Shown: piece after piece, positions 20,234 to 36,297 of the stretch
How the letters are laid out: every line of letters begins with the position of its first letter
How positions within the stretch are numbered: position 1 is the first letter of the stretch
DNA from: Lysobacter sp. MMG2
Lineage (GTDB): Bacteria > Pseudomonadota > Gammaproteobacteria > Xanthomonadales > Xanthomonadaceae
Length of the DNA: 64,000 nt
Direction of reading: 5' to 3'
Assembly (NCBI RefSeq): GCF_016735495.2
Contig: NZ_JAERQY020000006.1
Location: 62,001-126,000, forward strand
Position numbers and translations under genes: made by a program
Notes under the pieces: model-generated
The model's input: only the letters and a program-made list of their open reading frames with translations
Told to the model about the DNA's origin: nothing
Database searches by the model: none

Positions 20234-20251
20234 CGGTTCGATCCTGTGGAA

Positions 20252-21541: not shown

Positions 21542-21544
21542 GGT

Positions 21545-21913
21545 TCAGTCGGATTGCGCGTCGAACACGCGTTTGGAATAGCTGCGCGCGTCCATCTCGT
21601 CGACTTCGACGCAGAGTTGGGTGTGGGGATGGCGGTATGGGAGCGTCGCCTGCAGCGCATCGAGGACGAGCGCAGACAGCGCCGCGCGCGTGTCCGCATC
21701 GCGACCGGGCAGGATCCGCAGCTGCGCATGCACGAAGCCGCGTGCGTCCTCGGCGATGCCGACGCGGTAATGGTCCAGGCGCAACGCGCGGCTCTTGATC
21801 GCGGCTTCGTCGAAATGCCCGCTGTCCGCGAGGCGGTGGTTGATCTCGCGCAGCGCCGCATCGGGATCGAAGCCATCGACGTTCGCGGTGTAGTGCAGGG
21901 TCAGGTGCGGCAT
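21545..21913 (-). CDS. 5-carboxymethyl-2-hydroxymuconate isomerase (HpaF/CHMI-like) tautomerase
   Basis: 122 residues of the tautomerase superfamily. The N-terminus is MPHLTLHYTANV, so after Met removal Pro1 is the catalytic base as in CHMI and 4-oxalocrotonate tautomerase. Further family segments are FDEAAIKSRALRLDHYRVG and FVHAQLRILPGRD. CHMI normally acts in homoprotocatechuate degradation, but no other hpa gene is here. It is packed with 3-bp gaps between the ACMS decarboxylase and kynureninase genes, so a role in isomerising the 2-oxo-dienoic acid made from 2-aminomuconate is plausible (inference). Confidence 0.85.
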   Translation of the reverse strand: MPHLTLHYTANVDGFDPDAALREINHRLADSGHFDEAAIKSRALRLDHYRVGIAEDARGFVHAQLRILPGRDADTRAALSALVLDALQATLPYRHPHTQLCVEVDEMDARSYSKRVFDAQSD

Positions 21914-21916
21914 GGC

Positions 21917-22927
21917 TCAGGCGAAGCGCGACATCGACAGGCCCAGCCATTCCAGCGCGGTGCCGTGGTACAGGCGCGCCTGCTCGGCTTCGCTCAACTG
22001 CAACGCCGCGATGCCGGCGCCCGGTTCCTGTTCGCCCAGCGGGAACGGATAGTCGGTGCCGAGCATGACGCGGTCCACGCCGCAGGTGTCGAGCAGATAA
22101 CGCAACGCGCGCGGGTCGGCGACCCACGAGTCGAAGAACAGCTGGTTGAGGTACTCGCGCGGATTGCGCGGGTTGTCGGTGGCGACCAGGTCCGGCCGCA
22201 TGTTGAAGCCGTGTTCGATGCGGCCGATGGTGTACGGGAAGCTGCCGCCGCCGTGCGCCATGCAGACCTTCAGGTCGGGCACGCGCTCCAGCACGCCGCC
22301 GAAGATGAGGCAGCACGCCGCGCGCGATTGTTCGGCCGGCATGCCCACGAGCCACGGCAGCCAGTACTTGGGCATCGTCGCCGCGCCCATCATGTCCCAC
22401 GGATGCACGAGGATCGCCGCGCCCAGTTCGCCGGCGGCCTGGAAGAAATCGAACAGCTCCGGCGCGTCGAGGTTCCAGTCGTTGATGTGGCTGCCGATCT
22501 GCACGCCCTGCAGACCGAGCTGGTCCATGCAGCGTTCCAGCTCCTGGATCGCAAGGCGCGGCGACTGCATCGGCACCGTGCCGATGCCGGCGTAATGACG
22601 CGGATACTCGCGGCAGGCCTCGGCCATATGTTCGTTGAGCGCCTGGTGGAGTTCCAGCGCGTGGTGCGGCTTGGCCCAGTAGCTGAACATCACCGGCACG
22701 GTGCTGATCACCTGCACCTGCACGCCGAAGCGCGCGTAATCGTCGATGCGTTCCTGCGGGTCCCAGGTCTTGGACCAGATCTCGCGGAAGAACTTGCCGT
22801 CCTTGTAGATCCGATGGCGCCCGTCGTCGGTGTGGTGGATCACCGGGAAGCGGTCGTCCCCGTACTTGCGCGCCAGGTTGGGCCAGTCGCGCGGCATGTA
22901 GTGGGCGTGGGTGTCGATCTTCAGCAT
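21917..22927 (-). CDS. 2-amino-3-carboxymuconate-6-semialdehyde decarboxylase (ACMSD)
   Basis: 336-residue amidohydrolase-fold, Zn-dependent non-oxidative decarboxylase. It takes the dioxygenase product ACMS to 2-aminomuconate semialdehyde, diverting it from quinolinate. Metal ligands: DTHAHY (His7, His9), the VHPWDMMG His, and the late Asp in MLGTDYPFPLGE. GIGTVPMQSP and VCMAHGGGSFPYTIGRIEHG are typical for ACMSD. It is the first gene of the kmo-side block, 161 bp from the PLD gene of the stress module. Older annotation would call it simply an amidohydrolase. Confidence 0.93.
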   Translation of the reverse strand: MLKIDTHAHYMPRDWPNLARKYGDDRFPVIHHTDDGRHRIYKDGKFFREIWSKTWDPQERIDDYARFGVQVQVISTVPVMFSYWAKPHHALELHQALNEHMAEACREYPRHYAGIGTVPMQSPRLAIQELERCMDQLGLQGVQIGSHINDWNLDAPELFDFFQAAGELGAAILVHPWDMMGAATMPKYWLPWLVGMPAEQSRAACCLIFGGVLERVPDLKVCMAHGGGSFPYTIGRIEHGFNMRPDLVATDNPRNPREYLNQLFFDSWVADPRALRYLLDTCGVDRVMLGTDYPFPLGEQEPGAGIAALQLSEAEQARLYHGTALEWLGLSMSRFA

Positions 22928-23088
22928 GAACGTCCGAGGGCGTGTCGGGCCCGGCGCCGGCCGGGCGGTACGGCCATACGATACCCGACTCGCCGTGGGC
23001 GTATGGTGCTGCGAATTCCCTCTCCGCCGGGAGAGGGGGCTCGCGCGCGCCGGCCCTGGGGCGGAAACGACGAGCCCGGACCTCGGGA
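22928..23088. other. Left junction of the membrane-stress module
   Basis: 161 bp between ACMSD and the PLD-like gene. It contains a 7-bp inverted repeat (CCATACG at 22974-22980, CGTATGG at 23000-23006) that could be an operator for the ACMSD-kynU-kmo block, and a palindromic repeat CCCTCTCC-GCCG-GGAGAGGG at 23018-23037 that may end the stress-module transcript. Confidence 0.5.
23018..23037. repeat. Dispersed CCCTCTCC palindrome
   Basis: CCCTCTCCGCCGGGAGAGGG, a near-perfect hairpin of the same family as 3606-3629, 36384-36407 and 44955-44978. It is placed behind the last gene of the stress module. Confidence 0.65.
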
Positions 23089-23784
23089 TTACGGCGCCAG
23101 GGCCGGAAACCGCTCCCACATCTGCTCGAACTGCCCGTCGAAGCAGCGCACCAGGTACGGATCGCGGCTGACCACGAGGTTCTCGTGGTTGGAGCTGCTG
23201 GCGCTGCGCGTCCAGTTGAAGCTGCCGTTGGCGATCAGCGCGCCATCGAACACCGCGAACTTGTGGTGCATGTGGAACGGCGTGTCGTCGAGCCGCACCC
23301 CGATGCCGTCCGCGGCGAGCCGGGCGATGTCGCTGCCGTCGTCGTGGCGCTTGTCGTTGTCGCTGACGATGCGCACGCGCACGCCACGCGCGTGCGCCGC
23401 GGCGAGCTCGTCGGACAGGCGATCGTCGGCGATGGTGAACACGCACACGTCGATCGACGTGCGGCTGTTCCGGCACAGCTCGCGCAGCTTGTGCAGGCAG
23501 CTGTCGCCCGGCGTGAAGAAGGCGGTGGTGTCGGCCGCGGCCGGGAGCGCCGAGAGATCCAGCGTCTTGACCACCTGTTCGAGCCAGCGCAGCACGGCGA
23601 GTGCATCCACGGTGCCGGCGGCCAGCAGCTCGCGCGCCATGTCGAAGGCGCGGTTGCGCAGGTAGCGGATGCGGTCGGCGTCGATGCGTGCGCCGAGCTC
23701 GCGCAGTTCGAAACGCTCGCGATTGTCGAGGTTGAGGTCGGTGGCGCCGTCGCGCAGCGCCTGGTCGAGGCTTGTGAAATCCAT
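23089..23784 (-). CDS. Phospholipase D-like domain protein
   Basis: 231 residues. A helical N-terminal third (1-85) precedes one PLD/nuclease-like half-domain with a single HKD motif, HMHHKFAVFDGALIANGSFN (about 172-191: HxKx4D then GSxN), followed by WTRSASSSNHENLVV. With one motif it would need to dimerise, like Nuc-type endonucleases and MitoPLD, so it could cut phosphodiesters in DNA or lipid. No signal peptide. Six bp after telA, it is the last gene of the stress module. Substrate not known. Confidence 0.85.
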   Translation of the reverse strand: MDFTSLDQALRDGATDLNLDNRERFELRELGARIDADRIRYLRNRAFDMARELLAAGTVDALAVLRWLEQVVKTLDLSALPAAADTTAFFTPGDSCLHKLRELCRNSRTSIDVCVFTIADDRLSDELAAAHARGVRVRIVSDNDKRHDDGSDIARLAADGIGVRLDDTPFHMHHKFAVFDGALIANGSFNWTRSASSSNHENLVVSRDPYLVRCFDGQFEQMWERFPALAP

Positions 23785-23790
23785 GCCGCT

Positions 23791-24897
23791 TCAGCCGGCC
23801 GTTTCGATGGTCGGCGCCGACAGGCGCTTCTGCACGTCCTCGCGCATCTTCGCCAGTTCGGTCTCGGCCTGGCGGCGCTTCTCGATGCCTTCGCGATGGA
23901 TCGCCCGCACATCCTCGACGGTCTGGATGAGCTGGTCGTGCACGTACTGCAACGTTTCCATGTCGATCACGCCGCGCTGGTTGGCCTTGGCCGTGGCCAC
24001 CGAGTTCTCGTGCAGCAGGCGCGCGTTGTTGCGCATCATCTCGTTGGTCGCATCGTCGATGGCGGTGGCGAGTTCGACGGCGTTCTTCTGCTCTTCCAGC
24101 GAGAGCTGGATGGCGAAGCTGCGCTTCCACGCCGGGATGGTGATGTCGCGCACCGCGCCGAATTTCTCGATCAGCAGGATCGCGTTGGCCTGGATGATGC
24201 GGATGGTCGGCAGCGACTGGTCGGCCGCGTGCTGCAGCAGGGCGAGGTCGCCGACGCGCTTGTCCAGCAGGCGCATCGCGTTGTCCAGCTCGGAACGGCG
24301 CGTGCGCGACTGCGGATCTTCCAGTCCGTCGAGCGTGCGGCGCTCGCGATCGAGCTCGCCCATGCGCAGGCGACCCGCGCCGACGTGGATGCCGAGTTCG
24401 CGACGCTCCTCCAGCACGATCTCGTGCATGCGGTCGAAATCCTTGACGCGCTTGCGCAGGTCGTCCTGCTGGCGTGAGACGTCGCGCATCAGGTGCTCGA
24501 TCTGCGAATTGGTACTGCTGAACTTCTGCACCAGTTCGCCCTTGGACGCGCGCATGCGGTCGATCAGCGGGCCGACCACGGGCAGGCGCGAGCGTGCGCC
24601 GAGCTTCTGCAGGTTCAGCGTGCGGGCGATGCGCACGACTTCGCCGAGCGTCGCGCCGGTGGCGTCGAGGTCGCGGTTGCGCACCTGGTCGAGCAACTGG
24701 CTGGAGAATTCGGTGGTCTTGTTCGCCGCGTCCTTGCCGAAGCCCATCAGCTGCGCGGGCGCGATGTCCTGCGCGGCGCGGGCGACTTCGTGGATGCGCG
24801 CCGTGTCCGCCGTCGACAGGCCGAGCGCGGTGAGCGCGGCCTCGTCCAGCACGGTCTCCACGGGCAGGGCGGCGGCGTTCTGCGTGATCTGGTTCAT
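23791..24897 (-). CDS. telA: TelA family toxic-anion resistance protein
   Basis: 368 residues, largely alpha-helical. TelA core segments include GFGKDAANKTTEFSSQLLDQ, LPVVGPLIDRMRASKGELVQ, DFDRMHEIVLEERRELGIHV and ANAILLIEKFGAVRDITIPAWK, then a long coiled-coil end. TelA is named from plasmid tellurite resistance. Its biochemical role is unknown and the family is common in Ter-type and membrane-stress clusters. The start at 24897 overlaps the stop of the upstream gene (ATGA). The six-bp gap to the PLD gene supports joint transcription. Confidence 0.92.
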   Translation of the reverse strand: MNQITQNAAALPVETVLDEAALTALGLSTADTARIHEVARAAQDIAPAQLMGFGKDAANKTTEFSSQLLDQVRNRDLDATGATLGEVVRIARTLNLQKLGARSRLPVVGPLIDRMRASKGELVQKFSSTNSQIEHLMRDVSRQQDDLRKRVKDFDRMHEIVLEERRELGIHVGAGRLRMGELDRERRTLDGLEDPQSRTRRSELDNAMRLLDKRVGDLALLQHAADQSLPTIRIIQANAILLIEKFGAVRDITIPAWKRSFAIQLSLEEQKNAVELATAIDDATNEMMRNNARLLHENSVATAKANQRGVIDMETLQYVHDQLIQTVEDVRAIHREGIEKRRQAETELAKMREDVQKRLSAPTIETAG

Positions 24898-25667
24898 GGC
24901 GAAGGCTCCTGGGTGGCGCGTCCGGCGTCGGTGCCGGCGGTCGTGGTGTCGGGTGGAACGGATGCGGGGGGCGTGCCGGCGAGCGACAGGCGCATCGCGG
25001 CGAGCTGGGCATGCAGCGCGTGTTGCAGACGTGTCGTGGCCTCGTCGTCGCGACGCTGCGCGGACGCCGTGAGTGAGGCCTGCTGGCGCCATGCGGGAAC
25101 GAGCAGGTCGCGCACCTGTGCATGCCGTTCGAGCAGGTGACGCGCATGCGAATGCGCCTGCTCGGCGTGGGCGGCGGCGTTCTCCCACGTCGTGGCGATG
25201 GCTTCCAGGTGAAGACGGCGGCGCACGCGCGCATCCTCGTCGCCGGCCTGCGGTGATGCGGGCGCACTGGATTCGCGCAGGCGCTGCGCCAGTTCGCGCA
25301 CGCGCATGGCGAGTGCGGTGAGTTCGGCCGACTGTGCGCTCAAGGCGTCGGCGAGGTTTCCCGCCGATACCAGGTGAAGGCGCACGCGGGTTTCGGCCGG
25401 ATCGGGCTGGGCCTGCGCGACCAGATCGCGGCCGAGCAGGCGACCGAGGAATCCGGCGCGACGACGGCGTCGCGCAGGGTCGCTCGTTTCGATGGCGGCC
25501 ACGATGCCTTGCAGCTCGGCCAACAGCGCCGTGGTGGGCAATGCGTGAAGCCGCGCGTCGAGCGCTTCCAGCTCGGCAAGCGCCGACACGCCGGCGTCCG
25601 TCGACACGCCATCGCGCGCGAGGCGCGAGGCGGATTCGTCGGCGACCGGACGCTGCGGCTGGGTCAT
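24894..25667 (-). CDS. Helical protein of the TelA cluster, function unknown
   Basis: 257 residues, not recognised as a named family. It is soluble and helix-rich with Arg/Ala/Glu-rich heptads (about 95-220: SAQSAELTALAMRVRELAQR), a short basic RRRRRAGFLGRLLGRDL motif near residue 70 that could be amphipathic, and a Pro/Thr-rich tail. It overlaps the giant ATPase gene upstream and telA downstream, each by ATGA, so its product is probably a partner of both. The basic GFLGRLLG segment before coiled coils also appears in TelA-associated 5-bromo-4-chloroindolyl-hydrolysis-like proteins, but I cannot confirm homology. Confidence 0.8.
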   Translation of the reverse strand: MTQPQRPVADESASRLARDGVSTDAGVSALAELEALDARLHALPTTALLAELQGIVAAIETSDPARRRRRAGFLGRLLGRDLVAQAQPDPAETRVRLHLVSAGNLADALSAQSAELTALAMRVRELAQRLRESSAPASPQAGDEDARVRRRLHLEAIATTWENAAAHAEQAHSHARHLLERHAQVRDLLVPAWRQQASLTASAQRRDDEATTRLQHALHAQLAAMRLSLAGTPPASVPPDTTTAGTDAGRATQEPSP

Positions 25668-28600
25668 GCGTCGGTCGGCTTGCTGCTGATCTCGGCGAGC
25701 GTGCTGCCGCCGAACTGTTGCAGCGCCACGTCGAGCGGCCGTTCTGTCACCGTCGGCTGGTGCTGGCGGCGGCCCGGCTTGCCCGGCTTGGCGGGAGCGG
25801 TGGCCACGCCATCGCGCATCGCGTTCGCCAGTTGCAGCAGTGCGTCGCGCGTGCGCTCTTGTTCCTCGTGCTGCCCGCGCAGCGCATCCAGCAGCGGCGC
25901 GACGGTGGCATGCAGCGATTCGGGCAGCGCCTTCATCCACGTCGAATCCGCGACGGGCGCCGGCGCATTGCGCTGCTCGGCGAAGCGTTCGAGCAGGGCC
26001 AGCATCGCATCCCACGGCGGGGACGGCGGCGCAGGCGGTGGCTCGACCGGCGTCTGCGTGGCCGTGCCGATGGCCTGCAATCCGCCGGCGATGTCCGCCA
26101 GCTGCGCGACCACACGTCCGCCGACATCGTCCTCGTCGGCGCCCATCGCCTTGTTGCGCAGGAAGTCGCGCTTGATCTGCGCCCAGCGCGCCGTCTCCTC
26201 GTCCGCCATCGCACCGCGCAGCTCGGCCAGCTTGAGCAGGTTTTCCTCGGCGCCGGTGGTGAGCAGCTGAGCTTCTCCCATGTAGTGGTCGCCGATGAGC
26301 CGTTGCAGCTCCGCTTCGTTGAGCACCGGCGAGATCTTCTCCGCCAGCTTGTTCATGTTGCGATAGCTGCCCTGCAGCTTGAACGGCGGCTCGGTGCGGT
26401 ACTTGTCGGCCTGTGCGGCGCTGGCGATGTACTGCTGGTTGACGCGGTAGACCACGTCGCGCACCTGCATCAACCGTTGCAGCGTGCCGAGGATCTCGGT
26501 GCTCTCGGCCGCGCTGTAGGCATGGCTCAGGCCGTTGAGCGAGACCTCCTTGCCGCGCGCCTTGTCCGCCAGCAGGTAAAGATCGGCCAGTTCGCGCGTG
26601 GCCAGCGGGGCCAGCACCGGGTTGGACGTGAGGCAGTTCTCGATGTAGCTCAGCGTGAAGGCGTCTTCCTTGCCACCCAGCACGTCGCCGAGGTTGTAGA
26701 TGTCGGCACGGTTGGCGAGCATGTCCGGAATCTTGAACACCTCGCCGGATTCCGTGTACGGGTTGCCGGCCATGACCACGCAGAACTTCTTGCCGCGCAG
26801 GTCGTAGGTTTTCGTGCGCCCCTTCCACACGCCTTCGATGCGGCGCGTGCCGTCGCACAGCGAGATGAACTTCTGCAGGAACTCCGGGTGCGTATGCTGG
26901 ATGTCGTCGACATACAGCATCACGTTGTTGCCCATCTCCAGCGCGAGGTTGAGCTTCTCCAGCTCCTGGCGAGAGGTGGCGTCCGGCGCCTGCGCGGGAT
27001 CGATCGAACGCACTTCATGGCCCAGCGCCGGGCCGTTGATCTTCATGAAGATCAGGCCGAGCCGGTTGGCGACGTATTCCATCAGCGTCGTCTTGCCGTA
27101 GCCGGGCGGGGAGATCAGCATCAGCAGGCCCATCAGGTCGCTGCGCTTGTTCTCGCCGACGGTGCCCATCTGCTTGGCGAGGTTGTCGCCGATGATGGGC
27201 AGGTAGACGTCGTTGATCAGGCGGTTGCGCACGAACGAGGTGAGCGGGCGTGCCTGGAACTCCGACAGCCGCAGCGACTCCCGCTGGCGTGCCATGGTGT
27301 CCTGTCGCACCGACTGGTACTGCCGGTAGCCCGGCAGGAAGCGCTCGCGGTGATGGCGCAGGCGCGCCAGCAGTTCATCCGCGGCCAGCGGCATGCGGCC
27401 GGCGGCGATGCGCGGATGCTCGCCGAGCAGGCCTTCGACGATCGTCTGCAGCGTGGTGTCGTTGTTGCGTCGACGCAGCGTATCGCCGATGAGCAGCACA
27501 GCCGCGGCTTCCGGCGCATACGATGAGGAGGCCGCGAACGCGGGCTGCGTGCACAGGCCTTCGAGCCAGTGCAGGGCGTGCGTCCAGCGTGCGGGCAGGG
27601 GCAGGGTCGCCAGGGTGCGCGCGAAGGTCTCGCGCATGCCCGCCGCTTCCAGGCGCTGGCGCAGCCCGTCGGCGAGTTCGCGCGCGTAACGCGAGAGCAC
27701 CAGCGAGACCTCGGCTTCGGCCAGCTCTTCCAGCAGATAGTCGGCGGCGGCCGCCGTCAACGCGGCGTCGAACGGGAGCGGGTTCGCGTCGAGCCACGCG
27801 GCGATGGCGGCGTCGACTTCCGCGCGCAGCGCGTCGAGCCCCGCGCGCGTGCCGAACAGCTGCTGCATGGTGCGCGCGCCGGCCAGTCGTTGCGCCCAGG
27901 CGCGCGCCTCGTCGTCGTGCTGATGGTCAGCCCAGTACAGCGCCGCCAGCGCACGCGCCTGCGGTGCATGCAGCAGCGCGCCGGCAATGGCGCGCTGGGC
28001 CAGCAGCGCACGCAGGATCAGCGTCGCGTCGTAGTCGTGGATGCCGCGCTCGTAGCCGTCGCGATAACGCGGCGCGGCATAGTCGCGGACAATGCGCGCC
28101 AGTTCGTTCGCATCGTTCGCGCTTCGCTGCAACAGATCCAGGCTCAGGCCGTCACGGCCGGTGTCCGCCGCTTCCAGGACCTGGCCCGCGAGGTATTCGC
28201 CGCGATAGAGCGTGGGCGATTCGGACTCCAGCGATGCCGGCCAGAACTCGCGCAGCGCCGTCAGTTTCTCGTCGTGGATCGGCTCCATGAAGTCGGTGCC
28301 GGTGAGGTGCAGGGCGAGTTCGTCGCCGCGTGGCAGCAGCGTCAGGTCCAACGGCTGCGTGTTGACGCTGAAACGGTGGCGGCCCAGCTTGATGACGTTG
28401 CCGCCGTCCTCGAACAGATCGCTGCGATCGCGCAACACGCGCACCGCCTGGTCGCGCGCGCCCTTCAGGCGCGCTTCGACGTCGTCGGCCTTGACGCTGT
28501 CCTTGAGCTCGCGCAGGCGTCCGGCCAGTTCGCGGATCTTGAGGATCAGAGGGTCGCCGGCGAAGAAAGCGTTGAGCTCGTCGATGCCGGCCAGCTTCAC

Positions 28601-30994
28601 CGTGCGTCGGGAGAGTCCTTCCAGGATGCGATTGGCCGCGTCCAGCACGGTCTGCGCCTTGCGCTGGCGGTCGTCGAGCAGCGCCTGCTTGTGCGCATCG
28701 AACGCCTCCAGCAGCTCTTCGCGCTTGGTGACGATGTCGCCGAGGAACTGTTCGTGTTCGCCGAACTGGCTTTCCAGTTCTTCCAGCTGGACCATCAACC
28801 GCGACAGTTGTTCGTCGGCGCGTTCCGGATCGGTCGCCAGCCCCAGTGCATTGGTGATGGCCTGGCCGAACAGGGCGAACTGCGCGCCGAACTGGGCCAC
28901 GGCCTCGCTGGAACCCAGCGTCTTGCGGCGTTGTTCCGCACGCGCCTTGGCCTGGTTGAGGCGGGCGTAGATGACCGAGATCGCCTCCACCACGCGCGTG
29001 CGCTGCGTGGCGTCGTCGACCTTCAGCGAGGCGACCAGTTCCGAGAGCATGTCCAGGTCGGCCGAGCGTGCCTGCAATGCGGCGACATGTTCGGCCAGCT
29101 GGCGCGCGGTCTTGGCCTGCTGCGCGGCGGCGTCGAGTTCATCCACCTGGCGGGCGAACGGCGCCAACGCCTTGTCCTGCCCGAGGAAGGCGCCGGTGGC
29201 CTGGCCGATGCGTTCGTGGGCCGATTGCAGTTCGGCGCCCATCGCGTCGATCGCGACGGTGTCGATGTAGCGGTAGTCGCGGATCGTCAGCAGCTGCCCG
29301 CGCAGCCGGCCGATCGCGCCCAGCGCTTCGACGAATTCGTCCACCTGGTTCCAGTTGTCCGGCAGCAGGCGGCCCATCAGCGCCTTGTGTTCGGCGCGCG
29401 CCTTCGTCATGGCCGCGTCGGACTGGCGGCGGATGTCCTGGACCTTCTCGAATTCGTCCAGCACCGATTCGCCGGTCGCGCAGATCTCGCGCAGCAGCGT
29501 GGCCGCGCCTTCGCAGTTGCCGTCGTCGATCCAGTGGTGCGCGTCGAACAGGCGTCGCGCGTTCTGGGTCAGCAGCTGGTAGCGCTGCACCGTGACCTCG
29601 GGGTCGTCGATCTCGCGCGCCAGCCCGTAGAGGTTGGAGATGCCGCGCACCAGTTCGGCATTGCCGATGCGGCCCATGAAGCTGGTGCCCGGCGGGCGGC
29701 TGGCGGCGAACTCGTCACTGGTGAACGGCGTCTGCCACACCTGCATCGGATGCACGCGCGTGGCGCCGTCGCCTTCGGCGTGGAACAGCACCATGCGACC
29801 GTCCGGCAGTTCCGCATGACCGTGCCCGAACAGCGGGTTTTGCAGGCGGCGCTGGATCATGTTGTAGACGAACAGCGCGCTGCGGCCCTGGTCGGGCTCG
29901 TAGAACGCGTACATCACGTCCTCGCCGTTGGGCGAGCGCGTGGCGCGCTGGAACTGCATGCCGGCCATGCTGGCGTCGAAGGCCTTGTGCTCGCCGTTCT
30001 GCAGGTAATAGCCGCCGGGGAAGAGGATGCCGTGGTCTTCCGGCAGCTGCACGCAGGCCTGGGTGATGGCGTCGTTGCGCGTGACCTTGCCGGTGATCGT
30101 GTTGTAGACCAGGCCGCGCCACACCGTCTCGCGGTATGGCAGCACCTTCAGCAGGATCAGCGAGCCCACGCGCGCGAAGTCGATGTGCGCGTCGTCCAGC
30201 GACTGGGTCTTGTCCTCGACCGGCTCGCTGTAGATGCCCTGGCCGAGCTCGGTGTTGTTCTCGACCTTGATGGTCAGGTCGCCGTGGGTGGTTTCGACGA
30301 AGACCGTGTCGAGGATGTTCAGGTGCGGGAAGCGGCCGTTGACCATCAGCTCGCGCGTGGCCCGCGTCCATTCGAAGTCGAACGGCGGTGGCAGCACGAG
30401 GTCGCGCTCGCCGCGCGTATCGATGTAGGTGAGCGCGCCCTGGTTGGAGATCGCCCAGCGGAACACGCGCACGTCGGTGGTTCGCTCGCCGATCTGGAAC
30501 GCCGTCAGCAGCTTGCCGGCGGCCACGTCCAGCTGCAGCAGGCGCGCGTTCTTGTAGTACGCGTACAGCTCGTTGAAGTCGCGCACGAACGCCGCGTCGC
30601 CCAGGAAACTGGTCGCCAGCTCGACCGGCGCGACATCGAAACCTTCGGCGCTTTCGGTGAGGCGGTACAGGCCGAAGACGTCCTCCACGCGCGTGGTGGT
30701 CTTCAGCCCGAGGAATACGTTGTAGCCGAACAGCAGCAGATCGCCGACCGGCACGATATCGCGGCCGATGCAGTTGTTCTCGGTGCGGATGCGCAACCGG
30801 CCGATGACCTCCAGGCGGCTGTCGCCGAACTCCTGCAGGCGCCGCTGGTTGAGCGCGCCGGCGAGGTTCTGCAGGCGCTCGCCCTGTTCGTCGAGGCGGC
30901 GACGCAGCACTTCGTAGGCGCCGCCCTGGGCGACGGCCCGGTCGATCTGTTCGGTGGCCGCGACTTGCTCGGCGGCGCTGGCGGTTTGCGACAT
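25664..30994 (-). CDS. Giant AAA-type ATPase (1776 aa), often annotated 'DNA repair ATPase'
   Basis: 1776 residues. An N-terminal half (about 60-450) looks like a beta-propeller-type domain (FLGLKTTTRVEDVFGLY, ELPDGRMVLFHAEG). A long helical/coiled-coil region (about 480-900) and another helical stretch follow, then a C-terminal AAA module with Walker A SPPGYGKTTLMEYV (Lys about 1301) and Walker B VMLYVDDIQH (Asp-Asp about 1362), plus a sensor-like VVMAGNPYTESG. This resembles MoxR/dynein-type AAA in its lid. The DNA-repair label is unproven. It has no signal peptide. GAGGT precedes the ATG at 30994. Its stop overlaps the next gene by ATGA. Confidence 0.88.
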   Translation of the reverse strand: MSQTASAAEQVAATEQIDRAVAQGGAYEVLRRRLDEQGERLQNLAGALNQRRLQEFGDSRLEVIGRLRIRTENNCIGRDIVPVGDLLLFGYNVFLGLKTTTRVEDVFGLYRLTESAEGFDVAPVELATSFLGDAAFVRDFNELYAYYKNARLLQLDVAAGKLLTAFQIGERTTDVRVFRWAISNQGALTYIDTRGERDLVLPPPFDFEWTRATRELMVNGRFPHLNILDTVFVETTHGDLTIKVENNTELGQGIYSEPVEDKTQSLDDAHIDFARVGSLILLKVLPYRETVWRGLVYNTITGKVTRNDAITQACVQLPEDHGILFPGGYYLQNGEHKAFDASMAGMQFQRATRSPNGEDVMYAFYEPDQGRSALFVYNMIQRRLQNPLFGHGHAELPDGRMVLFHAEGDGATRVHPMQVWQTPFTSDEFAASRPPGTSFMGRIGNAELVRGISNLYGLAREIDDPEVTVQRYQLLTQNARRLFDAHHWIDDGNCEGAATLLREICATGESVLDEFEKVQDIRRQSDAAMTKARAEHKALMGRLLPDNWNQVDEFVEALGAIGRLRGQLLTIRDYRYIDTVAIDAMGAELQSAHERIGQATGAFLGQDKALAPFARQVDELDAAAQQAKTARQLAEHVAALQARSADLDMLSELVASLKVDDATQRTRVVEAISVIYARLNQAKARAEQRRKTLGSSEAVAQFGAQFALFGQAITNALGLATDPERADEQLSRLMVQLEELESQFGEHEQFLGDIVTKREELLEAFDAHKQALLDDRQRKAQTVLDAANRILEGLSRRTVKLAGIDELNAFFAGDPLILKIRELAGRLRELKDSVKADDVEARLKGARDQAVRVLRDRSDLFEDGGNVIKLGRHRFSVNTQPLDLTLLPRGDELALHLTGTDFMEPIHDEKLTALREFWPASLESESPTLYRGEYLAGQVLEAADTGRDGLSLDLLQRSANDANELARIVRDYAAPRYRDGYERGIHDYDATLILRALLAQRAIAGALLHAPQARALAALYWADHQHDDEARAWAQRLAGARTMQQLFGTRAGLDALRAEVDAAIAAWLDANPLPFDAALTAAAADYLLEELAEAEVSLVLSRYARELADGLRQRLEAAGMRETFARTLATLPLPARWTHALHWLEGLCTQPAFAASSSYAPEAAAVLLIGDTLRRRNNDTTLQTIVEGLLGEHPRIAAGRMPLAADELLARLRHHRERFLPGYRQYQSVRQDTMARQRESLRLSEFQARPLTSFVRNRLINDVYLPIIGDNLAKQMGTVGENKRSDLMGLLMLISPPGYGKTTLMEYVANRLGLIFMKINGPALGHEVRSIDPAQAPDATSRQELEKLNLALEMGNNVMLYVDDIQHTHPEFLQKFISLCDGTRRIEGVWKGRTKTYDLRGKKFCVVMAGNPYTESGEVFKIPDMLANRADIYNLGDVLGGKEDAFTLSYIENCLTSNPVLAPLATRELADLYLLADKARGKEVSLNGLSHAYSAAESTEILGTLQRLMQVRDVVYRVNQQYIASAAQADKYRTEPPFKLQGSYRNMNKLAEKISPVLNEAELQRLIGDHYMGEAQLLTTGAEENLLKLAELRGAMADEETARWAQIKRDFLRNKAMGADEDDVGGRVVAQLADIAGGLQAIGTATQTPVEPPPAPPSPPWDAMLALLERFAEQRNAPAPVADSTWMKALPESLHATVAPLLDALRGQHEEQERTRDALLQLANAMRDGVATAPAKPGKPGRRQHQPTVTERPLDVALQQFGGSTLAEISSKPTDA

Positions 30995-31105
30995 CGTGGT
31001 ACCTCGCCCATCCGGGGCGGTTGGAAAGCGACAGCGGGAACGTCAGCCGGTTGCCAGCGAACTGCGGCCGGCGTCGTGCGGAGGCAGACGCCGGCCGGCC
31101 TGGCG

Positions 31106-31372
31106 TCAGGCCGAGGTCGTCTCGGTCGCCTGGATGCCGTACTTCTTCGCGATGCCGTCCAGCTGCGCCTTCATCGCCGCGTCGATCTCGTCCGGGCGGA
31201 TGCGGGCGATGATGTTGCCCAGCACGCGACGTTCGTTGTCGTCGGTGACGCCGTCGCGTTCGGCGATGGCGATGATCTTCGCCAGTTCGGTCGCATCCAG
31301 TCGGCCGTCGTTGCCGAAGCACTGCACGGATTGGAAGGCCATTTCCAGGAAGTCGCGGTTCTCTTTGCTCAT
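31106..31372 (-). CDS. Small acidic TerB-like protein
   Basis: 88 residues, MSKENRDFLEMAFQSVQC..., helical and acidic, with conserved-looking acidic pairs in FGNDGRLDATELAKII and DGVTDDNERRVLGNII that recall the metal-binding acidic residues of TerB-like all-helical domains. The TerB assignment is tentative. AAGGGAA before the ATG at 31372 supports that start over one seven codons earlier. It sits between the flotillin gene (102-bp gap) and the giant ATPase gene (111-bp gap), all on the minus strand. Confidence 0.78.
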   Translation of the reverse strand: MSKENRDFLEMAFQSVQCFGNDGRLDATELAKIIAIAERDGVTDDNERRVLGNIIARIRPDEIDAAMKAQLDGIAKKYGIQATETTSA

Positions 31373-31474
31373 GTCAGTTCCCTTGTCAGTCAAAGCATTG
31401 CGTGATGTGTACGGTGCGCCGTCCGCGCGGATGGGGTGTCATCCGCGCGACGGGCATGCGTCGGGGCAGGGCGC

Positions 31475-33499
31475 TCAGGCGCCGACGGGTTCCTGACGGC
31501 TCTTGTCGGCCGCGTTGATCGGCACGACCGAGGCGGTGGCGTCGATTACCGGTTCGCGTCCCGTGGGCTTGACGCCCAGGTAGCGCTCCAGCAGGTCGGC
31601 CACGATCGGGCTCTTGCCGGCGAAGCCTTCGATCGACTTGCCCAGCGAGAGCGCCTTGGAGAAGCTCTCGAACAGGCCGCCGTCGCCGCCGACCAGGTCG
31701 ATGTTGGCGTTGCGCAGCGCCGAGGCGATGACTTCGGCGTTCTCCTTCGACACTTCGCGACCGGCGTCGATGGCGGCCATGGCCTGCTCGAGGTGGGTTT
31801 CCAGCGTCATGCGGAACTCCTCGTGGCTGCGCGCGGAGTCGCTGAGCGAGTCGATCGCCTCGAACTTCGCGGTCAGGCCCTCGGCCTCGGCGGTGAGTTT
31901 CTTGACGGTGACGTTGGCTTCGGCGATGCCCACCGATTCCACGGCGGTGGCCTTGGCGCGGCCCATCTTCTCTTCGCCTTCGGCCTGTGCGGCGAGGTTT
32001 TCCGCCAGCACGCGCGCGTCGTTGCTGCCCTGCTTGTAGGTGGCGTCCGCCTTGGCCTCGATCACGCGCGCTTCGGCGATGCCGACCTTCTCGATCGCAT
32101 TGGCTTCGGCTTCGCGCACCTGCGCTTCGGCCAGACCGGGTGCGGCGGTTTCGGCACGCATGGCTTCGGCCAGCAGCTTCTTGGCGTCGGCGGACTTGGC
32201 GGCGGAATCCAGTTCGGCCTGGGCCAGCGTGGTGATCTCCACCGAGCGGAACTTGGCCGCGGCCTCGGCGGCCTCGGCTTCCTTCACGGTGCGCACCAGC
32301 GCTTCCTGCGCATCGGCCTCGGCGGCGATGACCTTGGCCTGGCGCTCGCGCTCGGCCTCGGACACCACGCGCACTTCCTTGATGCGCTCTTCTTCCTGCG
32401 CCACGGTCTTGTCGATGGCGATGCGCTCGCGGGTGATGTTGGCCACGTCCATCTTGCCGGTCTCGACCACCTTGTCGCGCTCCACGCCTTGCAGCTGCAC
32501 TTCGCGGTCGGTGGTGACCTTCTCCAGCTGGCGCGCGCGCTCGACGCGCTCGGCCTCGATGGCGACGGCGCGCTGGCGGTTCTGCTCGGCCACTTCGACT
32601 TCGCGCTGGCGGTTCTGGTCGCGGATCTGGATCTGCTCCTCGGCGGCGAGACGGGCCTGTTCGGCCAGCAGGCGCTGCTCTTCCTTCACGCGCGCGGTCT
32701 CGGCTTCCTCGCGGGCCTGGATGCTCTCGACCTCGCGCTTCTGGCGTGCTTCGGCCTCGGCCTGCTGGCGTTCCAGCGCCAGCGTCGCCTCGCGCGCTTC
32801 GACGTTCTTCTTGGTGATCGCCAGGCGCTCGTTCTGCTCCAGTTCGTTGGTGATGACGTTCTGGGTGGCGGTGAGCTCGGTGATCTTGCGGATGCCCTCG
32901 GCGTCCAGGATGTTGTTGTTGTCGAGCAGGTTCTTCGGCGTCTGCTCCAGGTAGTCGATGGCGACGTCTTCCAGCACGTAGCCGTTGAGGTCGTTGCCGA
33001 TGATCTTGATGATCTCGTCGCGGAACTCCTGGCGCTTTTCGAACAGCTCGGTGAAGTCGAACTTCTTGCCGACGGTCTTCAGCGCCTCGGAGAACTTGGC
33101 GTTGAACAGCTCGTCGACGGCGTTCTTGTCGGAGGCGCGGTCGGCGCCGATGGCCTTGGCCACGCGCAGTACGTCGGCCTGCGTTTCGTTGACGCGCAGG
33201 TAGAAGGCGACGGTGATGTCGGCGCGCATGTTGTCGCGGCAGATCAGGCCTTCCTTGCCGCGGCGGTCCACCTGCAGCGTGATCAGGCTGATGCGCATGT
33301 GCTCGGCGCGGTAGAGCACCGGGATGATGAGGCCGCCGGTGAAGCGCACCTTCGGCATCGAACTCATGTCGTTGACGATCAGCGCGGTGCCCTGGTCGAC
33401 CTTGACGTAGAAGGCCTTGAACAGGCCGAACAGGCCCAGCATGACGACGAGCAGGACGCCCGCCCCGATCAGGAACGGGAGGATCAGGGACACGCTCAT
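31475..33499 (-). CDS. yqiK: Flotillin/SPFH-domain membrane protein YqiK
   Basis: 674 residues. An N-terminal transmembrane segment (about 5-28) is followed by a PHB/SPFH domain (about 30-210: QGTALIVNDMSSMPKVRFTG, YVLEDVAIDYLEQTPKNLLD) and a very long Glu/Ala/Arg-rich coiled coil (about 215-590), then a C-terminal flotillin-type oligomerisation end (VGGDGGLFESFSKALSLGKS, GKSPIVADLLERYLG). Such proteins build membrane microdomain scaffolds. YqiK and YqiJ are neighbours in E. coli too. It is 63 bp downstream of the YqiJ-like gene. Part of the stress module. Confidence 0.93.
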   Translation of the reverse strand: MSVSLILPFLIGAGVLLVVMLGLFGLFKAFYVKVDQGTALIVNDMSSMPKVRFTGGLIIPVLYRAEHMRISLITLQVDRRGKEGLICRDNMRADITVAFYLRVNETQADVLRVAKAIGADRASDKNAVDELFNAKFSEALKTVGKKFDFTELFEKRQEFRDEIIKIIGNDLNGYVLEDVAIDYLEQTPKNLLDNNNILDAEGIRKITELTATQNVITNELEQNERLAITKKNVEAREATLALERQQAEAEARQKREVESIQAREEAETARVKEEQRLLAEQARLAAEEQIQIRDQNRQREVEVAEQNRQRAVAIEAERVERARQLEKVTTDREVQLQGVERDKVVETGKMDVANITRERIAIDKTVAQEEERIKEVRVVSEAERERQAKVIAAEADAQEALVRTVKEAEAAEAAAKFRSVEITTLAQAELDSAAKSADAKKLLAEAMRAETAAPGLAEAQVREAEANAIEKVGIAEARVIEAKADATYKQGSNDARVLAENLAAQAEGEEKMGRAKATAVESVGIAEANVTVKKLTAEAEGLTAKFEAIDSLSDSARSHEEFRMTLETHLEQAMAAIDAGREVSKENAEVIASALRNANIDLVGGDGGLFESFSKALSLGKSIEGFAGKSPIVADLLERYLGVKPTGREPVIDATASVVPINAADKSRQEPVGA

Positions 33500-33562
33500 T
33501 GCAACTTCTCCTTGTTGGAACGGTACTGCGGTCTTGGAAGGTATGTGTTCGGTGGTGCGGTG

Positions 33563-34204
33563 CTACAGGTTCTTGAACTGTTCCTCGGACACCACGCGGT
33601 AGGCGTGCTGCCCGTTGAGGTATTCGATCAACACGACGCGATCGCCGCGCTTGAAGCGGTCCGCCTGTTCGTGACGGATCTGCAGGACCAGGCCGGCGCC
33701 GCCGTCGTCGAACGTGGCCTGGCCGTAACCGGCATCCACCGACGGCGTGCTGACCACGCCGACGCGGCCGAGGATGGACGGATCCGCCGGTGGGCGCAGG
33801 CGCAGCAGCACGCGGCTCAGCGGGCGCAGCAGCAGCGAGGTGGCCAGCACGCCGGGCACCAGCATGGCGACCGCCGCGACGGCGCCGAGCAGCACGCGCA
33901 GCGTCGCCGGCAGGTGCTGCAACACCAGCAGCTGCACGAAGTAGGTGCCGACCCAGCCGACGAACGCCAGCACCGTCAGCACGATCATCACCGGCACGCC
34001 GCTGATGCCGAGCTTGGACAGCATCGCCGCCAGGCCGCTGGCGTCGCCGTCGTGGGCGTCGCCATCGCCGCCCAACAGCCCGTCCGGCGCGTCGGCGTCA
34101 ACCATGCCGGTCGCCGCCAGCAGCCAGTACACGACGCAGACCGCCAGCACGATGCTGTAGAGCAGGGTGGGGAAGGTCAGGGCGGTGGTCAGGAATTCGG
34201 TCAT
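33563..34204 (-). CDS. yqiJ: YqiJ-like membrane protein with OB-fold (NfeD-like) end
   Basis: 213 residues. Transmembrane helices at about 8-30, 68-92 and 100-130 precede a C-terminal beta-barrel like the NfeD OB-fold (PSILGRVGVVSTPSVDAGYG ... FKRGDRVVLIEYLNGQHAYRVV). NfeD/YqiJ proteins partner flotillins, and the gene directly precedes yqiK here, in agreement. The start overlaps the PspA-like gene stop by ATGA. Probably the membrane adaptor of the flotillin scaffold. Assignment rests on topology and context. Confidence 0.88.
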   Translation of the reverse strand: MTEFLTTALTFPTLLYSIVLAVCVVYWLLAATGMVDADAPDGLLGGDGDAHDGDASGLAAMLSKLGISGVPVMIVLTVLAFVGWVGTYFVQLLVLQHLPATLRVLLGAVAAVAMLVPGVLATSLLLRPLSRVLLRLRPPADPSILGRVGVVSTPSVDAGYGQATFDDGGAGLVLQIRHEQADRFKRGDRVVLIEYLNGQHAYRVVSEEQFKNL

Positions 34205-34950
34205 CGCGGTTTCTTCCCTGGGGTGCGTGTCCGGGTGGCGCGCCCGCCCGTGGGCGGAGCCGACGCCGCGGCCGCATCGGCCAGACGTTGGGCCAGGCGC
34301 GCCAGCACGAGCTGCGCACGCGTGTTGCGTTCGTCGATGCCTTCGGCAAGCAGACGCGCGTCCAGATCGGAATCGCCCATCGGCTCGCCGGCGTCGTCCG
34401 CCTCGGCGCGCGGCGCATTACGCCTGCGCGAGCGCAGCAGCGACTCGATCGCGTTCTGCGGCAACGGCGTGCCGGGCTGTCGGTGGGCGACGGTCTCCTG
34501 CGCACGCTGCACCGTCTCGGCAGCGCGCAGCGCATCGAGCTGCAACTGCAGCCGGCGCAGGCCGTTCTCGCCTTCCTCGATGAGGTAGCGCATCTGCGTC
34601 ACGCGCAGGTCGAGCTGCGCCAGCAGGGCGTGCTCGTCGTCGCGCGCCTGTTCCAGCTGGGCGATCGCCGCGGCGACTTCCTCGGCCAGCGCCAGCTTGC
34701 CGGCCTGGAGGCTGGCGAGCGCCTGCGCTTCGCGTTGTTCGATGGCCGCCGCGGTGGTGTCGGTGCGCTCCTGCGCCGTCATGCGCCGGGCCAGCAGTTC
34801 GGCGAGGCTGGCGCGCCATTCGCGCACGCGGGCGTCGCTGGCGCGGATCTCCTCGTCGAGGTCGCGCTGCGCCGCGTTCGGCACGATGGAATCGCCGAGT
34901 TCGGCGAGCTGCTCGCGCACGCGGCCGAAGATGCGGGACAGCGCGCTCAT
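34201..34950 (-). CDS. PspA/IM30-like coiled-coil protein
   Basis: 249 residues, nearly all helical. It starts MSALSRIFGRVREQLAELGD, an amphipathic first helix as in PspA/IM30 that would bind stressed membrane. A long coiled coil (about 25-160) and a charged Arg/Ala-rich end with a basic TRTRTPGKKPR tail follow. PspA-family proteins form ESCRT-III-like membrane-remodelling assemblies. In E. coli the equivalent is YjfJ, encoded after YjfI, the same order as here. It overlaps both neighbours by ATGA. No pspF, pspB or pspC is nearby, so control differs from the classical Psp system. Confidence 0.85.
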   Translation of the reverse strand: MSALSRIFGRVREQLAELGDSIVPNAAQRDLDEEIRASDARVREWRASLAELLARRMTAQERTDTTAAAIEQREAQALASLQAGKLALAEEVAAAIAQLEQARDDEHALLAQLDLRVTQMRYLIEEGENGLRRLQLQLDALRAAETVQRAQETVAHRQPGTPLPQNAIESLLRSRRRNAPRAEADDAGEPMGDSDLDARLLAEGIDERNTRAQLVLARLAQRLADAAAASAPPTGGRATRTRTPGKKPR

Positions 34951-35594
34951 GCCGCGCCCTCCACGAGGATGCCGTCGCCCAGGACGTCGTCGCGGAGAAA
35001 CGGCGCATAGGCCTCGGCGGCGTTGAGCACGTTCTCGGCCAGCGTCTCGATCTCGAACACGATGTTGGCCAGGCTGGAGCGCGTGTCCAGCGAGCCGAAC
35101 ATGATGTAGCAGGCCACGCCGCCGATGACCTCGATGGCCATGTTCGACAGCGGCAGCACCTTGTGCGTGCGCAGCACGTGCGCGTTGAACGCCGCTGTGT
35201 CGCGGACGTCCGACAGCGGCCACATCAGCGACTCGACGACGATCTGCTCGCCGCTGACCGCGATGAACACCGGCAGGTCGCCGTGTTCGCGCATGGCCAG
35301 GTGCAGGCTGGGCTCGACGCCTTCCAGCAGCTCCAGCGCGATGTGGCCGGAGAGGACTGGACGTGTCTCGGACAACGCGGCGTGCAGCGAACGGACGGTC
35401 CAGGCGACGGCGCGTCCGTCGTCGGCGCGCGCCTGTGCGCCGCCGGGCTGGCGCAACTGGCGCTCGATCGCCGCCAGCTCCTGCGCGTGCTCGGGCAGGA
35501 TCCACACGTCCTTCTTGACGAAGCCCTCGCGCCGCATCCGTTCGCGGAACTCGCGAACGTACTCGGTCGACGACTTGGGTCGAGGTCCTTTCAT
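34947..35594 (-). CDS. YjfI-like DUF2170 protein with N-terminal DNA-binding-like extension
   Basis: 215 residues. The C-terminal ~130 residues are DUF2170/YjfI (SGHIALELLEGVEPSLHLAM, VVESLMWPLSDVRDTAAFN, NIVFEIETLAENVLNA). The first ~60 residues (KSSTEYVREFRERMRREGFV, then KKDVWILPEHAQELAAIERQ) look like the ribbon-helix-helix segment of small phage/plasmid repressors, where basic residues precede a strand and helix. First gene of the stress module; the stop overlaps the PspA-like gene. The start at 35594 lies about where transcription should begin from the promoter at 35602-35631, so translation may be leaderless. An ATG at 35612 would overlap that promoter. Confidence 0.82.
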   Translation of the reverse strand: MKGPRPKSSTEYVREFRERMRREGFVKKDVWILPEHAQELAAIERQLRQPGGAQARADDGRAVAWTVRSLHAALSETRPVLSGHIALELLEGVEPSLHLAMREHGDLPVFIAVSGEQIVVESLMWPLSDVRDTAAFNAHVLRTHKVLPLSNMAIEVIGGVACYIMFGSLDTRSSLANIVFEIETLAENVLNAAEAYAPFLRDDVLGDGILVEGAA

Positions 35595-35601
35595 GAAAGT
35601 T

Positions 35602-35631
35602 ACAGTAGGCATTACCTGAAATGCCTGTCAA
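35602..35631 (-). promoter_or_regulatory. Promoter of the stress module
   Basis: Read on the minus strand: TTGACA (-35, consensus; 35626-35631), an 18-bp spacer, then TACTGT (-10; 35602-35607). The expected transcription start is at about 35595, next to the ATG at 35594. It is the best sigma-70-type promoter I see in the window. Confidence 0.6.
35608..35625. promoter_or_regulatory. Perfect inverted repeat filling the promoter spacer
   Basis: GGCATT-ACCTGA-AATGCC has 6-bp perfect arms and exactly occupies the 18-bp spacer between -35 and -10. A bound protein would block RNA polymerase (repression) or, as in MerR-type spacers, distort it. The first gene product carries a repressor-like N-terminus, so autoregulation is plausible. 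Confidence 0.5.
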
Positions 35632-35692: not shown

Positions 35693-35725
35693 AAAAAAAC
35701 AGCCCGGCGAGGCCGGGCTGTTTTT
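35693..35725 (-). terminator. Strong intrinsic terminator after nbaC
   Basis: CAGCCCGGC-GAG-GCCGGGCTG is a 9-bp stem with seven T after it on the minus strand and five T on the plus strand. It lies 41 bp past the nbaC stop and just upstream of the stress-module promoter, so it separates the two transcription units. Confidence 0.9.
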
Positions 35726-35766: not shown

Positions 35767-36297
35767 TCAGGTGTCGGGCATCACGTACTTGGCGGGCGCG
35801 GGGTTGAGATGGCCGCACTGCTTGCACGTGCGGTGGTCGCGCGAAGCGTAGAAACGCTCGAACACCGGCGGGAAGTCGGTCTCGATGTTCTTCAGCTTGA
35901 AGAACTCCTCAAAGAGCTTGTGGTTGCACCGCTCGCAGAACCAGAGCAGGCCGTCGAGCTCGTCGGACAGGCGGCGGCGTTCGATCACCAGGCCGATCGA
36001 GTCGGGCATGCGCTGCGGCGAGTGCGGGACGCGCGGCGGCAGCAGGAAGATCTCGCCGGCCTTGATGGGGATGTCGCGTACTTTCCCGTCTTCCTGGATG
36101 CGCAGCACCATCTCGCCTTCGAGCTGGTAGAACCACTCCGCGCCTTCGTCCCAGTGGTAATCGGTGCGCTGGTTCGGGCCACCGACCACCATCACGATGA
36201 AGTCGCCGACGTAGATCACCTTGTTGCCGACCGGCGGCTTGAGCAGGTGGCGGTGCTCTTCGATCCAGGCTTGCAGGTTGAGCGGGCTGGGCAGCAT
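35767..36297 (-). CDS. nbaC: 3-hydroxyanthranilate 3,4-dioxygenase
   Basis: 176-residue cupin that opens 3-hydroxyanthranilate to 2-amino-3-carboxymuconate semialdehyde. Fe(II) ligands: His48 and Glu54 (HWDEGAEWF) and His92 (RVPHSPQR). A rubredoxin-like second metal site is present (Cys121/Cys124 in CERC, Cys158/Cys161 in CKQC), as in bacterial enzymes of this family. Length is typical. It is the last gene of the second kynurenine block, closed by the terminator at 35693-35725. The decarboxylase that takes its product is 13 kb away beyond the stress module. Confidence 0.96.

Follow-up and report, generated by a model that had tools for sequence, protein, structure and literature searches.

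A lineage-specific, enlarged bac-type PspA-flotillin-ATPase cluster with TelA in Lysobacter sp. MMG2

In a 64,000-nucleotide window of the Lysobacter sp. MMG2 genome (contig NZ_JAERQY020000006.1, positions 62,001 to 126,000), nine adjacent genes encode YjfI, PspA, YqiJ, the flotillin-like YqiK, a small TerB/EF-hand-like protein, a giant AAA+ ATPase, a protein here called g7, TelA, and a phospholipase D (PLD)-fold hydrolase (Table 1). An initial annotation of the window, made from the sequence alone, had described these genes as a composite membrane-remodelling system. All nine open reading frames (ORFs) it listed are present on the minus strand, and the junctions measured here (YjfI/PspA, -4 bp; PspA/YqiJ, -4; YqiJ/YqiK, +63; YqiK/TerB-like, +102; TerB-like/AAA, +111; AAA/g7, -4; g7/TelA, -4; TelA/PLD, +6) reproduce its four ATGA overlaps and other gaps of 6-111 bp.

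Table 1. Coordinates of the cluster and of the features upstream of yjfI, given as positions in the window (TM, transmembrane).
Feature	Position	Strand	Remarks
Nine ORFs, one strand	35594 down to 23089	minus	first to last: yjfI ... PLD
yjfI/bacA	34947..35594	minus	N-terminal ~60 aa plus C-terminal DUF2170 (64-200)
pspA (bacB)	34201..34950	minus	PspA_IM30, 1.3e-18
yqiJ (bacC)	33563..34204	minus	about three TM-like segments; YqiJ_N weak
yqiK, flotillin/SPFH-like (bacD)	31475..33499	minus	one N-terminal TM-like segment
Small TerB/EF-hand-like protein	31106..31372	minus	two DG-x-D-like loops
Giant AAA+ ATPase (bacE)	25664..30994	minus	DUF3686 41-487, DUF7902 608-691, AAA module ~1250-1600
g7, distant TelA-like, predicted all-helical	24894..25667	minus	profile and fold comparison
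telA	23791..24897	minus	Pfam TelA, 2e-71
PLD-fold hydrolase (bacF), one HKD motif	23089..23784	minus	PLDc_2, 3e-27; nearest NCBIfam NucT
Candidate operator half-site TTTCATGAAA over yjfI start codon	35589..35598	minus	only half-site pattern match in the 64-kb window
Degenerate second half-site TTTCAGGTAA	35612..35621	minus	23 bp upstream of the first
Possible promoter	35602..35631	minus	TTGACA (35626-35631), 18 nt, TACTGT (35602-35607); read from sequence
Intrinsic terminator-like stem with T run	35700..35715	minus	between dioxygenase gene and yjfI

The initial annotation had seen in the cluster a union of components that usually belong to different systems. This is not supported for YjfI, PspA, YqiJ, the flotillin, the ATPase, and the PLD, which have already been described as one operon class (PMC11237479). 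In the operons of Ravi et al. (2024), a CesT/Tir (YjfI) protein and PspA are accompanied by a TM/band-7/flotillin protein, by YqiJ, and by an AAA+ ATPase that contains a coiled coil and a beta-propeller; in some Proteobacteria a PLD-fold hydrolase is added (PMC11237479). The window contains the same set in one operon and likewise places a DUF2170/CesT-Tir protein next to PspA, while the main text of that paper does not use the words TelA or TerB. In Pseudomonas aeruginosa, reverse-transcription PCR puts the six genes bacABCDEF in one operon (PMC10948618). One genome in our set, G905, encodes YjfI, PspA, YqiJ, YqiK, the DUF3686 ATPase, and the PLD in that order, and its BacA is 99% identical to PDB entry 8q8o over 141 residues. 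We infer that the published BacA crystal corresponds to 8q8o and that G905 is P. aeruginosa or next to it. P. aeruginosa bacA-F are very probably the same six genes; the gene order in G905 makes it very probable that BacE is the ATPase and that BacF is the PLD. Unlike the window, the 18-kb stretch of G905 contains no TelA, g7, or TerB-like ORF scoring over 60 bits. The window cluster is a lineage-specific enlarged version of the known bac/PspA-flotillin-ATPase membrane-stress cluster; it extends that class by the TerB-like gene, g7, and TelA, and the YjfI N-terminal domain and the palindromes described below are also new here.

Most of the family labels of the initial annotation were borne out. 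Pfam supports those of YjfI (DUF2170, E = 3e-48), PspA, the ATPase, TelA, and the PLD; YjfI also matches the NCBIfam BacA model (5.9e-80, below that model's cut-off), and PspA is the sole PspA_IM30 match at E ≤ 0.001 in its genome. For YqiJ and YqiK the profile matches are weak, and the labels draw support from related proteins. YqiJ has a YqiJ_N match of 5e-4, below the Pfam cut-off, and TM-like segments that fit a YqiJ/YuaF-type membrane protein, as which we count it. YqiK has no Pfam match, including band-7, and matches the NCBIfam FloT model at 6.9e-6, below cut-off; across four plasmid loci it shares 41-71% identity with the product of the gene preceding the ATPase, which is annotated as SPFH or flotillin in two of them and as hypothetical in the other two; with the SPFH- and flotillin-annotated proteins encoded next to the ATPase on pQBR103 and on a plasmid of Streptomyces the identity is 49-50%. 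Together with its N-terminal TM-like segment, this identity to annotated relatives suggests that YqiK is the flotillin of the bac class. The TerB label fared less well: the window protein has no TerB match, and in an alignment of 11 members five match Pfam TerB (best 0.004) and four EF-hand_7 (best 2.5e-4), so that the name is weakly founded and is kept here as TerB/EF-hand-like.

A scan of named genomes found at least 569 stretches encoding the ATPase, the best 80 of which were kept, and gene content was counted over 99 distinct loci, mapped using the window proteins in BLAST searches. YqiJ, YqiK, and the ATPase stand together in 91 of the 99 loci, the eight loci without YqiJ including short contigs; 61 of the 91 also have YjfI and PspA, and 34 of those the PLD as well. 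YqiK adjoins the ATPase in 94/99 loci, while the TerB-like gene occurs in 23 and TelA in 11. In L098 and L116, YjfI-PspA lie on the opposite strand. By these labels the full nine-gene set was found in the window, its sister genome (L136), L030, L134 (= L086), and L135. The genes therefore do stand together elsewhere, and because the neighbourhood is conserved across loci the products probably act together, as the initial annotation had proposed. DUF3686 was detected in 106/395 genomes of the family and in 10/397 genomes drawn from the phylum. ATPase matches occur in 12 plasmid records, some of them chromosome-sized, with flotillin and ATPase on plasmids of Deinococcus, Streptomyces, and Hymenobacter; on the Hymenobacter plasmid a Tir-type chaperone, PspA, and a DUF1449 protein precede them. 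Among 50,697 phage records there was no ATPase match at E ≤ 1e-5.

The window TelA is the sole TelA match at E ≤ 0.001 in its genome and has no solved relative by sequence. TelA scored above cut-off in 75 of the 395 family genomes; 63 of them encode it on the same strand as DUF3686 and 4574-4832 bp downstream, a distance with room for g7. Ten further genomes (G481, G527, G562, G641, G661, G671, G689, G697, G705, and G490) have a DUF3686 ATPase that lacks a neighbouring TelA and, unlinked to it, a TelA of lower score (158-180 bits), and G773 and G782 encode TelA without DUF3686. The G773 TelA has the top score of all; a second weak TelA match adjoins it (G773:C3:24127-25940), forming another tandem pair in another context.

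By profile and fold comparison, g7, which the initial annotation had left as unknown, is a distant relative of TelA and not a member of that family. It has no Pfam TelA match at E ≤ 0.1. Scores of all 12 TelA proteins against a g7 profile were 16.7-29.0 bits, whereas the best of 335 decoys (reversed, shuffled, or coiled-coil sequences) reached 6.5; the reverse test with a TelA profile was weaker, with 8/12 above the best decoy. Local hhalign comparison of g7 and TelA gave a probability of 47.5% (E = 1.9e-4) versus at most 0.2% for three controls; a global profile alignment was meaningless (probability 0.0). An AlphaFold model of g7 (predicted local distance difference test (pLDDT) 79) had phage TelA as its first and third Foldseek matches (probability 1.00 and 0.96, TM 0.50 and 0.44, E 0.04 and 0.16), with no match at E ≤ 0.001, and comparison with the PDB gave only generic helical bundles. 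On a quick tree of 107 ATPases, in which presence was scored by BLAST and weak homologues may be missed, TelA changes once: its 20 rows form one nested clade (SH-aLRT 98), which we read as a gain. The TerB-like gene, the PLD, and YjfI change 13, 11, and 20 times, respectively. Six TelA loci (L042, L044, L045, L055, L056, and L093) have kilobases of upstream sequence and no YjfI-PspA, which argues for an association of TelA with the ATPase instead of PspA; at L043 the contig ends upstream. The pair ties TelA to one specific ATPase, apparently by one gain, and provides a partner to test. A literature search, in which subscription journals were mostly not covered, found no publication linking TelA to the cluster, and none on a YjfI operator.

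In the ATPase, Pfam finds DUF3686 (7e-193), DUF7902, and AAA; the protein matches the AAA of the bac class by AAA plus DUF3686 and by gene order, the beta-propeller fold being the description of Ravi et al. Walker A (GYGKTT) is present in all 105 near-complete ATPases, a DD-type Walker B in 95, and a GNPYxESG region in 100. When residues 1200-1660 were modelled (pLDDT 78) and compared using VIA-align, the ten best rows were NorQ/CbbQ (Z 12.3-14.2, root-mean-square deviation 4.1-4.8, 224-254 residues aligned), followed by dynein (Z 11.3 at a deviation of 12.2), and RuvB was not among the 50 rows listed; Foldseek placed RuvB first by E-value (1.9e-4). Judged by fold comparison the module looks MoxR/NorQ-like. 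It has the GNPYxESG region of MoxR AAA+ proteins such as NorQ and CbbQ and may share their fold; in contrast to these, it is part of a protein with more than 1200 further residues, DUF3686 among them, and there is no VWA protein among the nine. We also considered a Vps4/ESCRT-like ATPase, and Vps4 did not appear among the sequence, Foldseek, or VIA-align rows listed, an absence that is no proof.

YjfI in most DUF3686 loci has about 60 residues before DUF2170 that are strongly conserved (KSSAHYQRxxRxRLREQGLVKKEVWILPE) and that changed once on the ATPase tree. This N-terminal domain (N-domain) is a weakly MazE-like candidate DNA-binding domain by profile comparison, and it also resembles UrfF (0.004, below cut-off). 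PDB 8q8o, deposited as 'DUF2170 family protein', covers window YjfI residues 62-201 only, without the N-domain. The bac papers report a BacA protein of about 16 kDa, 139 crystallised residues, and a sigma-54 site (PMC2587700, PMC10948618). The BacA ORF of G905 is 206 aa long, includes the N-domain, and is immediately preceded by two half-sites with a spacing of 22 bp. We infer that the 16-kDa protein fits a start at an internal ATG before DUF2170, which would leave about 147 residues. If BacA does have a repressor head, its regulatory domain may be absent from the construct and gene model in the literature. A strict -24/-12 scan upstream of yjfI (GG and GC fixed, 6/7 other positions, 0.28 hits per set in shuffles, starts estimated) found no sigma-54 promoter in 73 loci and no good site in G905, so that the published site is not supported as a general feature; the scan leaves the P. 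aeruginosa site itself undisproved.

CATG-centred palindromes accompany the N-domain. We sought the half-site pattern T-Y-W-CATG-W-R-A, whose background is 0.045 per kb, within -100 to +25 of gene starts. At least one palindrome was found at 54/55 long-YjfI starts, a count that includes loci from which the pattern was derived, that leaves out L041, L086, and L136 as duplicates and loci with less than 100 bp upstream, and into which near-identical pairs such as L035/L075 and L051/L053 were each entered singly. Two or more palindromes were present in 36, mostly 21-24 bp apart; in relatives such as L031, L135, L141, and L142 the second half-site position reads TTTCATGTAA or TTTCATGAAA. No palindrome was found at 14 short-YjfI starts or at 346 other cassette starts (YqiJ 0/99, YqiK 0/101, AAA 0/106, PLD 0/40), and a site was present in 53/54 loci with long YjfI versus 1/28 without YjfI; L105, without YjfI, has three scattered half-site matches. 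Twenty further cassette stretches included 19 with YjfI, all with a site and none with one elsewhere in the stretch, and one without YjfI that had no palindrome; after removal of L157, L159, and L162 (= L091, L059, and L061, already used), palindromes stood at 16/16 new loci, several of them close relatives of used ones. They were also present in 3/4 further bac-type loci. In Gilliamella (L088, L084, and L083) the spacing of the half-sites is 13 bp, not 21-24, and they lie further upstream of yjfI.

A second YjfI subfamily, from Pseudomonadaceae, has a related N-domain and a palindrome in 12/16 loci. L175, the only member without the N-domain, has no palindrome, nor do three with a divergent N-domain (L185-L187), which may use another site. 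The neighbours, in 7/7 read of the 16, are YjfI-PspA-DUF2491-DUF350-DUF1190-glutathionylspermidine synthase, the second YjfI-PspA class of Ravi et al. (PMC11237479). It shares the N-domain and upstream palindromes with the window; unlike the window, its 9-kb stretches contain no flotillin, ATPase, TelA, or PLD match. Sites in this class (L172-L187, L194-L200) read TCACATGTGA or TTACATGTAA. On plasmid pQBR103 (L165, 95-11229), DUF2491-DUF350-DUF1190-glutathionylspermidine synthase genes are followed by the flotillin and ATPase, so that parts of both operon classes stand side by side.

We consider it likely that the nine genes constitute a self-contained operon for envelope stress, belonging to the PspA-flotillin-DUF3686 ATPase class, to which one Lysobacteraceae lineage has added g7 and TelA. 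YqiK and YqiJ would form a membrane scaffold, PspA would coat damaged inner membrane, and the giant ATPase, a predicted MoxR/NorQ-like AAA+ on a long scaffold, would remodel the PspA/flotillin assembly, with the TelA/g7 helical pair as its putative fixed adaptor in this lineage and the TerB-like protein and single-HKD hydrolase as presumed optional accessories. The YjfI N-domain would bind the palindromes at its own promoter and repress the operon, while the C-terminal chaperone-like domain probably binds PspA; titration of PspA to the membrane would release repression. We base this proposed circuit on the N-domain and the palindromes, on the derepression published for loss of BacA, and on an interaction of BacA with BacB that is cited as unpublished (PMC10948618). 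Self-repression by YjfI would explain why BacB to BacF rise 6.1- to 13.5-fold in P. aeruginosa lacking BacA (PMC10948618). More tentatively, YjfI/BacA may be two-headed, combining a repressor that binds DNA with a CesT-like chaperone that keeps hold of PspA, such that departure of PspA lifts or shifts repression; the circuit would be common to two operon classes and in Lysobacteraceae would drive an ATPase with a TelA/TelA-like pair as fixed adaptor. If so, the operon would read membrane damage via its own structural protein, and N-domain plus TYACATGTRA palindromes would constitute a switch shared by both YjfI-PspA classes. It would also be the mirror image of the classical Psp system (pspABC/pspF), where PspA restrains the activator PspF. 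That system shares a central PspA; in contrast to it, none of the nine window genes encodes PspF, PspB, or PspC (PspC is on another contig; PspF and PspB were not searched genome-wide), and the control proposed here is by a repressor. The bac system has a gene list and phenotypes and no settled switch, which a BacA repressor head with a defined DNA site would make directly testable.

Several observations weigh against this reading. TelA is not linked in 43 of the 106 DUF3686 genomes; the best PDB matches of the ATPase by sequence are weak and are NVL/VCP and RuvB (E 0.006-0.1), not MoxR, and AAA ties with AAA_5 in Pfam; Ravi et al. propose ESCRT-like remodelling (PMC11237479). The N-domain is MazE-like in 11/15 relatives at E ≤ 1 (best 0.0015), below the Pfam cut-off (window, E 0.028 and 14.8 bits against 22), and has no relative in the PDB. 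The second half-site is degenerate in the window itself, and when the whole long-YjfI gene is followed through its seven changes, palindromes agree in four independent pairs and oppose in none (p = 0.125). The palindromes could instead be the site of a regulator encoded elsewhere, with YjfI only a PspA chaperone. Such an arrangement would accommodate the missing solved relative, the fact that N-domain and palindrome match as one event on the ATPase tree, and the N-domains without a pattern match, two normal (L058 and L191) and the three divergent (L185-L187); binding of the palindromes by YjfI is itself predicted from their distribution. We nevertheless regard it as unlikely, given that 27/28 loci keeping the rest of the operon without YjfI have no half-site, that palindromes recur in the second class and are missing where L175 lacks the N-domain, and that loss of BacA raises BacB-F (PMC10948618).

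Other functions of the cluster were considered. The initial annotation had allowed for defence, and in an anti-phage island flotillin and PspA would sense phage membrane damage while the ATPase and a PLD-fold nuclease acted as effector. The patchy presence (106/395 in the family, 10/397 drawn from the phylum), the different genomic sites of the cassette among congeners, and the likeness of the PLD to NucT and, in a PADLOC scan, to DISARM DrmC (1e-9) and MkoC/MkoB (~1e-7) would fit such a role. The other eight proteins gave nothing better than 0.001 in that scan, which was limited to the cassette and excluded its flanks; the PLD is optional (40/107 tree rows, 11 changes), and the phenotypes reported for the P. 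aeruginosa relative are biofilm, swarming, rhamnolipid, and osmotic response (PMC2587700, PMC10948618). We therefore find the defence role unsupported and quite unlikely. A tellurite or xenobiotic resistance module of the Ter type, to which the initial annotation had linked TelA and the ATPase, is very improbable: TelA, shared with TelA (KlaA)/Ter systems, and the TerB-like protein are present, and a comparative study places TelA among sub-membrane Ter components (PMC7824862), but the TerB match is weak, the genome has no TerD match by a search that was positive in 2/14 control genomes, and TelA is here linked to the DUF3686 ATPase, with a distant second TelA, the linkage holding in 63/75 TelA genomes of the family (where Ter genes were not searched). 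Pfam and record names ('DNA repair ATPase', 'ATPase involved in DNA repair'), together with RuvB as first Foldseek match and among the weak sequence matches, would make the ATPase a DNA repair enzyme. We give this hardly any credence, as the gene immediately ahead of the ATPase is flotillin/YqiK-like in the four plasmid contexts read, YqiK is beside it in 94/99 loci, and the cassette has no DNA-processing gene except possibly the NucT-like PLD.

The enlarged envelope-stress cluster splits a kynurenine (tryptophan) catabolic cluster in the window species. In both its own genome and G612, it sits between a gene at 35767..36297 (minus), which we take to be a 3-hydroxyanthranilate dioxygenase, and one at 21917..22927 (minus), presumably an ACMSD-type amidohydrolase and the other half of the split cluster. 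Among ten congeners read, dioxygenase and ACMSD genes are 7-16 bp apart in eight; the gap is 519 bp in G570 and 4722 bp in G518, where a protease and an adhesin-like ORF were seen by eye. The same nine genes lie elsewhere in congeners G469 and G495, and eight congeners have no DUF3686. Insertion by a mobile element was considered, and inspection by eye of the two cassette ends found no integrase, transposase, or target duplication. Upstream of yjfI, the terminator-like stem is one of two found by a scan that gave 0.8 in shuffles. The possible promoter has a weak -10, was not called by a promoter scan, and would leave the yjfI mRNA nearly leaderless. A very long antisense open frame (18947-23665, plus strand, 1572 aa) is most likely a high-GC effect rather than a gene.

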